Below, piece after piece: positions 15,907-17,803 of a DNA stretch of 64,000 nucleotides (within the stretch, counting starts at the first letter, position 1; every line of letters starts with the position of its first letter). Origin of the DNA: Flavobacterium sp. SUN046 (GTDB taxonomy: Bacteria > Bacteroidota > Bacteroidia > Flavobacteriales > Flavobacteriaceae); contig NZ_JAPQNT010000004.1 of NCBI RefSeq assembly GCF_028867965.1, forward strand, positions 62,001-126,000, given 5' to 3'. The notes beneath the pieces are model-generated. The model ran no database searches and was not told the origin of the DNA. It saw only the letters and a program-made list of their open reading frames with translations. Made by a program: the position numbers and the translations under genes.

Positions 15907-15932
15907 AAACTTTCAGAAATAATTGAAAGTTT
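15907..15932. promoter_or_regulatory. Candidate operator 1 of the GbsR-type regulator
   Basis: Dyad ACTTTCA-N8-TGAAAGT, extended by AA/TT on both sides. The same half-sites with the same 8-bp spacer recur before the regulator gene. It lies 18 bases upstream of the first gene of the membrane-protein cluster, where a bound repressor would block transcription. Identity of the two sites is seen; binding is inferred. Confidence 0.65.
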
Positions 15933-15952: not shown

Positions 15953-16456
15953 TTATTTCATTATTTTAATTACCAATCTTCCTAACCAATTGTCTTTAAA
16001 TTCGGTTACTTTCTCAAGCATATTATCCGCTTTCAATACAAAGTCATATAATTTGGTAGTTTGATCTACAAAATGACGTTCTTCTTTAGTTCCATCGGCT
16101 TCAATTGTTGAAACTTCTTTCAAAATTTTGAGAGCTGGTTTGATTTCTCTTTTGCTACGTTCTTTAGAAATTTTCACTGCTAATTCGTCTAAATCTTTTT
16201 CGGCTGTAAAAAATTCTCTTCGTTCGCCAGCTTTGTATTCTTTGTACACAATTCCCCAATCCATTAATGCTCTTAAATTCATAGAAGCATTTCCGCGAGA
16301 AATTTGCAATTCTTCCATAATATCTTCCATCGAAATTGCTTCGTGAGATACCATTAAAAGGGCATGAATTTGAGCCATGGTTTTGTTAATTCCCCATTGG
16401 CTGCCAAGTGCACCCCAAGTTTGAACGAATTTATTTTTTGCTTCTCTGAATTCCAT
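15953..16456 (-). CDS. GbsR/MarR family transcriptional regulator
   Basis: 167-residue winged-helix regulator of the GbsR branch. The N-terminus KNKFVQTWGALGSQWGINKTMAQIHALL and the helix-turn-helix ISMEDIMEELQISRGNASMNLRALMDWGIVYK (residues about 41-72) are typical in order and spacing; the second half is a long helical dimerisation region. Promoter: TACATTTG on the minus strand ends 4 bases before the ATG, suggesting a leaderless mRNA. A perfect dyad overlaps the expected -33 region, so autorepression is likely. The same dyad precedes the adjacent gene cluster. Confidence 0.88.
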   Translation of the reverse strand: MEFREAKNKFVQTWGALGSQWGINKTMAQIHALLMVSHEAISMEDIMEELQISRGNASMNLRALMDWGIVYKEYKAGERREFFTAEKDLDELAVKISKERSKREIKPALKILKEVSTIEADGTKEERHFVDQTTKLYDFVLKADNMLEKVTEFKDNWLGRLVIKIMK

Positions 16457-16481: not shown

Positions 16482-16505
16482 AACTTTCAGTAAAAAATGA
16501 AAGTT
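16482..16505. promoter_or_regulatory. Candidate operator 2 (autoregulatory site)
   Basis: Dyad ACTTTCA-N8-TGAAAGT, the same as site 1 in both half-sites and in spacer length, though the spacer bases differ. It lies 27 bases upstream of the regulator start and covers the place of the -33 element. Confidence 0.65.
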
Positions 16506-16544: not shown

Positions 16545-16653
16545 TTGGTGAATATAATCACTGAAATTATATATTATTTGGTGAATACAATCACTAAAAA
16601 AGTATTAAATTGGTGAATATATTCACTAAATAATATATAATTTTGGTGAATAA
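16545..16653. repeat. Phased array of an 18-bp dyad upstream of the AAA/DUF4143 gene
   Basis: Three full copies of TTGGTGAATAyAwTCACT start at 16545, 16578 and 16610, and a half copy (TTGGTGAATAA) starts at 16643. Start-to-start distances are 33, 32 and 33 bp, about three helical turns. Each full copy holds GTGA-N6-TCAC; the third is a perfect 14-bp palindrome GTGAATATATTCAC. Spacers are pure A/T apart from one or two G. The half copy overlaps the -33 box of the ATPase promoter, pointing to regulation of that gene. Confidence 0.85.
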
Positions 16654-16672
16654 AAAATAATTTATATATTTG
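16642..16672 (+). promoter_or_regulatory. Promoter of the AAA/DUF4143 ATPase gene
   Basis: TTTG (16642-16645), a 19-base spacer, then TATATTTG (16665-16672): a full match to the Bacteroidota consensus. The last TTG of the -7 box could be misread as a start codon. Confidence 0.75.
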
Positions 16673-16687
16673 CAAAAAAAAATAGTG

Positions 16688-17803
16688 ATGATAATTAGGG
16701 ATTTAACTTCAGATTTAAAGACAAAACTTCACAAAGGCAAAGTCATTGTGCTTATTGGTCCGAGACAAGTTGGTAAAACAACCTTGATAAATGCTATTTT
16801 GGAAAAAAGCGACTATTTGTTTCTTGATGGCGATGATAATACTGTGGCAGAAACGTTATCAAATGCCAATACTGAAAACTTAAAAAGCATCATTGGAAAT
16901 TATAAATATGTTTTTATTGATGAAGTGCAACGCATTCCAAATATTGGTTTGAAGTTAAAAATTATGGTAGATCAAATAAAAGATGTTCAAGTAATTGTTT
17001 CAGGTTCGTCAGCTTTTGATATTAATAATGCAACGCAAGAACCATTAACTGGAAGAAAATTTGAGTTCCAAATGTTTCCTGTTTCTTGGAACGAGTTTGA
17101 GAAAAATGTTGGTTTTATGAAAGCGCAACAGCAACTCGAATTGCGATTGCTTTACGGAATGTATCCCGATGTGATAAATAATTTTGGTAACGAATATGAA
17201 ATTCTTAAAAACCTAGTTTCTAGTTATTTATATAAAGATATTTTGGCTTTAGCAGGCATTAGAAAATCGAATGTTTTAGAAAAAATTTTACAAGCATTGG
17301 CGTTGCAAGTTGGAAGTGAAGTTAGTTATAACGAAATTGCGCAATTGGTAGGTGTTGATAAAAATACGGTGAATAATTACATCGATTTGTTAGAAAAAAG
17401 TTTTGTGGTTTTTAGATTGAATAGTTTTTCTAAAAATATTCGGAATGAGATTAAAGCCAACAAAAAGATCTATTTTTATGATAATGGTGTTCGGAATATG
17501 GTAATTGGAAATTTTAATTCACTGAATTTACGTCAAGATAAAGGTGCGTTGTGGGAAAATTTTATGGTTTCTGAAAGAATGAAAATATTGTCTTATACTC
17601 AAAGTGTTGCGAAACCGTATTTTTGGAGAACCACTAAGCAACAAGAGATAGATTATATCGAGAAGAATGCCGATGCTGTAAGCGCTTTTGAATTCAAATG
17701 GGCAAATCGTAAAAAAGTAAAATTACCAAAATCATTTATTGATGCTTATAATCCTAGTTTTTTGGTTTTGGATAAGGAAAATTTTAGAGAGTTTTTGAAG
17801 TAG
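16688..17803 (+). CDS. AAA+ ATPase with C-terminal DUF4143 domain
   Basis: 371 residues. An N-terminal P-loop domain has Walker A GPRQVGKTT near residue 24, Walker B YVFIDEVQRIP and a sensor-like VIVSGSSAF. The DUF4143 part contains SYLYKDILALAGIRK, a helix-turn-helix-like stretch with VGVDKNTVNNYIDLLE, and the nuclease-like end LWENFMVSERM, WRTTKQQEIDYI, FEFKWA (D/E-x-K pattern of the PD-(D/E)xK kind). I chose the ATG rather than the TTG 18 bases upstream, because that TTG is part of the -7 promoter box. Biological role of this widespread family is not established; the phased dyad array in front suggests tight, possibly self-made, control. Confidence 0.88.
   Translation: MIIRDLTSDLKTKLHKGKVIVLIGPRQVGKTTLINAILEKSDYLFLDGDDNTVAETLSNANTENLKSIIGNYKYVFIDEVQRIPNIGLKLKIMVDQIKDVQVIVSGSSAFDINNATQEPLTGRKFEFQMFPVSWNEFEKNVGFMKAQQQLELRLLYGMYPDVINNFGNEYEILKNLVSSYLYKDILALAGIRKSNVLEKILQALALQVGSEVSYNEIAQLVGVDKNTVNNYIDLLEKSFVVFRLNSFSKNIRNEIKANKKIYFYDNGVRNMVIGNFNSLNLRQDKGALWENFMVSERMKILSYTQSVAKPYFWRTTKQQEIDYIEKNADAVSAFEFKWANRKKVKLPKSFIDAYNPSFLVLDKENFREFLK

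Follow-up and report, generated by a model that had tools for sequence, protein, structure and literature searches.

Candidate autoregulatory operator array before a DUF4143 ATPase gene of Flavobacterium sp. SUN046 and its co-variation with the predicted recognition helix of the ATPase

Which protein reads a row of evenly spaced palindromes at the promoter of a single gene? This question is raised by a 64,000-nucleotide stretch of Flavobacterium sp. SUN046 DNA (contig NZ_JAPQNT010000004.1, positions 62,001 to 126,000 of the forward strand; here called the window), in which an array of dyads precedes a gene for an AAA_14/DUF4143 ATPase, DUF4143 being a domain of unknown function. Comparison of sequences makes it highly probable that the array is bound by the ATPase, which would in this way autoregulate, and probably repress, its own gene. 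The features concerned, in window coordinates and with distances in base pairs (bp), are the following.

16545..16564, forward strand: dyad 1, TTGGTGAATA/TAATCACTGA; GTGA-N6-TCAC core starting at 16548
16578..16597, forward strand: dyad 2, one step of 33 bp from dyad 1; GTGA-N6-TCAC core starting at 16581
16610..16629, forward strand: dyad 3, one step of 32 bp from dyad 2; GTGA-N6-TCAC core starting at 16613
16643..16652, forward strand: half site TTGGTGAATA, one step of 33 bp from dyad 3, over the -33 element
16642..16645, forward strand: -33 element TTTG of a Bacteroidota-type promoter (consensus from the available part of PMC2483708)
16665..16672, forward strand: -7 element TATATTTG (TAnnTTTG), 19 bp past the -33 element
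16688..17803, forward strand: AAA_14/DUF4143 ATPase gene, 371 amino acids, matching PADLOC PDC-S01, with an ATPase core, a winged helix at about residues 194-246 and a C-terminal PD-(D/E)XK-like part
17357..17365, forward strand: codons of D224-K225-N226, the predicted start of the recognition helix and the residues that track the dyad

Geometry and conservation of the array

The coordinates bear out the original prediction, which had described three full dyads and a half copy at steps of 33, 32 and 33 bp, the fourth copy overlapping the -33 box: the half site indeed covers the TTTG at 16642-16645. The -7 element TATATTTG fits the consensus TAnnTTTG given for the -7 box in the available part of PMC2483708, and the ATG of the ATPase gene lies at 16688. 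The perfect GTGA-N6-TCAC core occurs three times in the 64-kb window, always within the array, and exact matches to TTGGTGAATANANTCACT in the whole genome were likewise restricted to the three array copies, whereas matches with up to three mismatches were at background level genome-wide (31 for the forward pattern versus 37 for the reversed-pattern control). Thus, the repeat is not scattered at unrelated loci, and the idea that such arrays are widespread in the genome was rejected, since exact matches are confined to the ATPase promoter.

Conservation was assessed for the best 80 of 176 homologous loci from the genome collection; 79 homologues were counted, as one had only 4 bp of upstream DNA, and the window itself was excluded. 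In 48 of the 79 homologue upstream regions two near-consensus sites stood 32 or 33 bp apart; 73 of the 79 had one or more near-consensus dyads, and 55 had a site matching at least 16 of 20 positions. The corresponding counts among 1375 control windows from the same loci were 1, 82 and 3. Dyad arrays upstream of DUF4143 ATPase genes, which the original prediction had led one to expect, are therefore found before close homologues. A repeat scan without any model of the dyad covered 176 upstream regions, namely those of the 80 homologues, of further homologues of other genomes and of the window. With a minimum of 13 matches in 16, the top direct repeat had a distance of 32 bp in 65 and of 33 bp in 28, altogether 93 of 176, and one shuffle per upstream region (176) gave none at either distance. 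In the nearer subfamily (at least 37% identity, 200 bp upstream), repeats at 32 or 33 bp were present in 91 of 136 upstream regions, whereas Markov shuffles gave 2 of 408 and control windows 13 of 1039. A score combining dyad and spacing was above the 99% level of the shuffles in 89 of 138 upstream regions.

The geometry is common across the subfamily and hence not peculiar to the gene of the window. More distant members keep the step of 32 or 33 bp and change the dyad, which is of TTTGATATTG-, TTTGGAAGTT-, TCCGTCAGTT- or another type, the half site being always 10 nucleotides long with a variable core at positions 4-7. Two ATPase paralogues in the same genome, L002 and L003 (46% and 41% identical), are preceded by 32/33-bp arrays of TTCC- and GTCA-type dyads, respectively, and the GTCA array occurs in the genome before the L003 gene only. 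In the distant subfamily, a 32/33-bp array was found in only 1 of 38 loci; single long palindromes stand there instead of an array and exceeded the 99% shuffle level in 13 of 38. Five distant DUF4143 ATPases (L187, L188, L196, L202 and L209) have one such palindrome, paired at all 14 of its 14 positions, directly before the start codon.

Co-variation of recognition helix and dyad

According to the original prediction, the DUF4143 ATPase contains a helix-turn-helix-like stretch and might itself bind the array. The stretch proved to be real: Pfam HTH_11 matched residues 197-239 with an E-value of 3e-4, below the Pfam cut-off, and the predicted structure (mean predicted local distance difference test score, pLDDT, 92; predicted template modelling score, pTM, 0.91) includes a clear winged helix made up of helices 194-206, 214-221 and 225-237 and a strand at 241-246. 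The recognition helix would be the third of these, which places residues 224-226 at its predicted start.

Dyad similarity was compared with windowed protein similarity, given the similarity of the remaining protein, in a partial Mantel scan of 62 non-redundant proteins. The scan peaked at residues 219-227 with 0.505 as compared to a maximum of 0.297 in 300 permutations, and the top single columns were 226 (0.58), 225 (0.49) and 224 (0.31); it was in part curated by hand, some dyads having been corrected after the helix table had been seen and the dyad of L053 being in the wrong register. Since these dyads had been set with the helices already seen, the scan was repeated without hand work. Automatically called dyads (44 proteins) yielded a peak of 0.534, again at residues 219-227, with a best value of 0.324 outside residues 200-245 and a permutation maximum of 0.353. 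Shared 6-mers and 7-mers in 140 bp of upstream DNA, used without a dyad model (71 proteins), gave peaks of 0.325 and 0.354 at residues 221-229, with best values outside of 0.156 and 0.176 and permutation maxima of 0.176 and 0.185, respectively. The control region from -330 to -190 reached a maximum of 0.07. All upstream peaks fall in windows within residues 218-229. Column 226 ranked first in all three uncurated upstream versions; column 225 was second with automatic dyads, and with k-mers columns 149 and 61 outranked 224 and 225. The link between array and ATPase is much strengthened by this result because the dyad co-varies with residues at which the recognition helix of the ATPase itself begins, which argues for the suggested, presumably direct, binding by the ATPase itself. 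The expectation that the recognition helix of a winged-helix protein sets the operator sequence is thus borne out at the level of co-variation.

Furthermore, the three residues 224-226 appear to largely predict the palindrome used by an ATPase. A caller blind to the helix reached its call score at 95 of 223 loci versus none of 223 shuffles, and its calls paired DKN with GTGA in 53 of 54 cases and SKN with GTCA in all 18 cases, one of them a tie, followed by the smaller sets DKK/GGGA (3/3), NKI/GTCA (3/3), DNH/TGGA (2/2), NHH/GGAA (2/2) and DRA/TAGA (2/2). At a lower call score, the expected core was found in 26 of 27 SKN and 62 of 99 DKN loci. A rule was fixed in writing before new genomes were fetched, and among 85 new loci, from which near-copies of old loci were not filtered, it was correct for dyad and 32/33-bp spacing in 36 of the 41 whose triplet it covered (GTGA 8/12, GTCA 15/16, TTCA 1/1 and GGA 12/12). 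None of the 41 carried an array of another class, and a GGA dyad lacking the spacing was seen in 3 of 12 DKN loci; the 44 new loci outside the rule comprised six with a loose GGA array, two with TTCA and one with GTGA. In the distant subfamily (25-32% identity), GGA...TCC accompanied 7 of 8 D-x-K helices and 4 of 30 other helices.

In a tree built without the helix, the dyad changes 19 times and the triplet 22 times. The pair NKI/GTCA has at least three separate origins and DKK/GGGA at least two (starred branches of the tree), and L173, a DKN/GTGA locus, lies inside the SKN/GTCA clade, a placing that is moderately supported. Only 1 of 57 same-genome pairs shared a triplet as compared to 3.5 expected from relatedness-matched pairs (67 proteins, 28 genomes), a difference that is not significant, though suggestive of insulation between paralogues of one cell. 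One genome, G417, holds six paralogues (L138, L163, L164, L165, L167 and L170) with six different recognition triplets.

Proposed autoregulation, alternative readers and exceptions

Following this, we propose that the array serves as operator of the ATPase gene and that its reader is the ATPase. The winged helix of this protein, with the ATPase core on one side and the PD-(D/E)XK-like domain on the other, would set residues 224-226 on the four variable base pairs of every half site. Within a dyad the half sites lie 10 bp apart, and dyads follow one another at 32/33 bp, that is three helical turns, so that all half sites come to lie on approximately one face of the DNA; on this face a row of protein dimers could assemble, possibly as an oligomer and in the cooperative manner suggested by the original prediction. 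Since the last site covers the -33 box, binding would most likely repress the gene, i.e., the ATPase gene would be under negative autoregulation, and release might depend on the ATP state or on a signal derived from an invader. Each paralogue would be served by its own array and its own helix.

Alternatively, the ATPase might bind the array to activate the promoter, or to assemble for another purpose such as nuclease targeting or plasmid-type partition or replication, with regulation as a secondary effect. We consider this unlikely, as the arrays are fixed relative to the promoter: a distance of 20-24 bp to the following -7 box, which is present in 81 of 99 DKN loci, was found for 66 GTGA sites, and in other clades a full dyad occupies this position. 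The promoter-locked position, together with the palindromic units and the helix-dyad co-variation, would also be unexpected for transposon ends. The view that the repeats represent an inert remnant, or else the ends or targets of a mobile cassette, is therefore the least probable of the explanations weighed here and hardly credible, despite orphan arrays in three of the seven genomes with the pattern and the patchy distribution of the gene, which was detected at an E-value of 1e-50 in 81 of 325 genomes from the class.

A different transcription factor could read the array, and a candidate is at hand: a divergently transcribed gene for a GbsR/MarR-type regulator (15953-16456) lies directly upstream of the ATPase array. 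Its likely own operator is a different dyad, ACTTTCA-N8-TGAAAGT, only 7 of 81 loci have a GbsR-related gene as a neighbour, and binding by this regulator would leave the tracking of ATPase residues 224-226 by the dyad unexplained, all of which renders this explanation very improbable. The GbsR neighbour was rejected as reader of the array, its own dyads being different. Moreover, the 14 largest neighbour-gene families, which are those listed, have no member at any of the 54 loci with less than 70% identity, and thus no neighbouring regulator from these families travels with the array. Exact copies of ACTTTCA-N8-TGAAAGT flank the GbsR/MarR-type gene at 15909-15930 and 16483-16504, one of them before this gene and the other in front of an operon for small membrane proteins that lies below it, and a third exact copy is found on contig C12; this dyad is probably the operator of the GbsR/MarR-type regulator itself.

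Several observations weigh against the ATPase as reader of the arrays or against the code proposed for it. At the lower call score, 33 of 99 DKN loci had no dyad call at all and four had another word alone. The GGA class is loose and also matches 6 of the 44 loci outside the rule. On well-supported branches, independent pairs numbered only four and three, which falls short of significance, with none in the wrong direction. A scan of 397 genomes from the family, of which three belong to the genus of the window, found the array pattern in seven: it precedes the ATPase gene in the genome of the window, G135 and G389, whereas G199 and G367, which belong to one genus, carry it before a gene for an ATP-binding protein of an ATP-binding cassette (ABC) transporter, G064 holds an array remnant and no homologue, and G077 has the pattern without a homologue in its locus, probably by chance. 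Finally, a 32-bp array was found by eye in none of the eight loci of a spread plasmid search (seven from Proteobacteria or Thermus, one from Runella).

The orphan arrays may be relics or captured promoters. G199 and G367 possess a homologue of 49-51% identity elsewhere in the genome, with another array. At L119 and L120, from two congeneric species, a GTGA array that includes a half site stands before the ABC-transporter ATP-binding gene, and the 3-kb locus has no DUF4143 gene. One and a half dyads with a step of 32 bp closely follow a deaminase-like gene (L118:862-900) in a genome where no homologue was detected, perhaps as the scar of a lost ATPase gene. Outside Bacteroidota, one clear array of this kind was found, a 32-bp repeat of a Treponema saccharophilum plasmid member; Desulfosarcina showed no clear 32-bp repeat, and a Spartinivicinus locus has repeats with a step of about 23 bp. 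A step of about 22-23 bp, two turns and not three, is seen in L322, a gammaproteobacterial plasmid member, and in L203, a distant member from Bacteroidota.

The ATPase and known systems

Pfam assigns AAA_14 (103.8 bits, cut-off 27) and DUF4143 (146.4 bits, cut-off 28.1) to the ATPase. Among 86 sequences G24, R26, G29 and K30 are invariant and D78 and E79 nearly so, which we take to be Walker A and B residues, respectively. In the C-terminal part E320 and D322 are invariant and E335 and K337 nearly so in the same set, with E320/D322 on a predicted strand at 320-327 and E335 on one at 330-336; a D...E-x-K pattern, presumably the active-site motif of a PD-(D/E)XK nuclease, is thereby found on the predicted core sheet. 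Fold comparisons of the ATPase gave hardly any coverage past residue 307, including the C-terminal domain. The PADLOC profile PDC-S01 matched residues 1-370, the full length, with an E-value of 1.7e-167; no NCBIfam entry exceeded its cut-off among the matches listed (25 of 40), and PHROGs gave only weak matches to ATPases.

PDC-S01, a putative single-gene defence candidate of PADLOC, has been described as a fusion of an ATPase with a PD-(D/E)XK-type domain that ranks fourth in frequency among the defences of prokaryotes (PMC12988326), and the available parts of PMC12988326 and PMC13356809 count it as very common without validated activity. The description in the former, as far as it was available, contains nothing on a DNA-binding helix, an operator or regulation, and defence activity was not demonstrated there. 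A published account of an operator for the DUF4143/PDC-S01 family was not found in the literature covered, which included few subscription papers. In Thermus, a DUF4143 gene was up-regulated 6.6-fold when a plasmid and Argonaute were both present (PMC4406477, available part).

We tentatively extend the proposal to the whole DUF4143/PDC-S01 family, an extension that is possible and rather doubtful: one polypeptide would be sensor, repressor and presumed nuclease effector, in that a STAND-like ATPase oligomer would be parked on its own promoter by the winged helix and would leave or change its state on an invader-derived ligand or DNA, and residues 224-226 would form a simple code, diversified so that paralogues of the same cell avoid cross-regulation. 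For a family that is very common, uncharacterised and a candidate for virus defence, an operator predictable from three residues would allow a direct assay of the binding state and of release, and the helix-dyad pairs would offer a natural set of orthogonal repressor-operator pairs.

Matches of the ATPase to the archaeal ATPases SSO1545 (2fna) and PABY2304 (2qen) end near residue 274 at 15-19% identity, and no report of operators of these two proteins was met. The ATPase differs from the NB-ARC/STAND NTPases RPP1, CED-4 and Apaf-1 and from Cdc6/Orc1 in that it appears to be devoid of sensor repeats and that its winged helix seems to read its own promoter. The WYL-domain repressors of defence operons, BrxR and CapW, the latter of which represses CBASS (PMC9122588, available part), have palindromic operators at defence-associated promoters, in likeness to the array described here. 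However, in BrxR/CapW systems a separate regulator controls the effector genes, whereas the ATPase would combine regulator and presumed effector, with no partner gene and no WYL domain, the latter being absent from its 12 Pfam matches. Autoregulation via operators is of a kind already known, and what would be new is that an ATPase built in this way and encoded by a single gene regulates itself sequence-specifically and by a code that has diversified.
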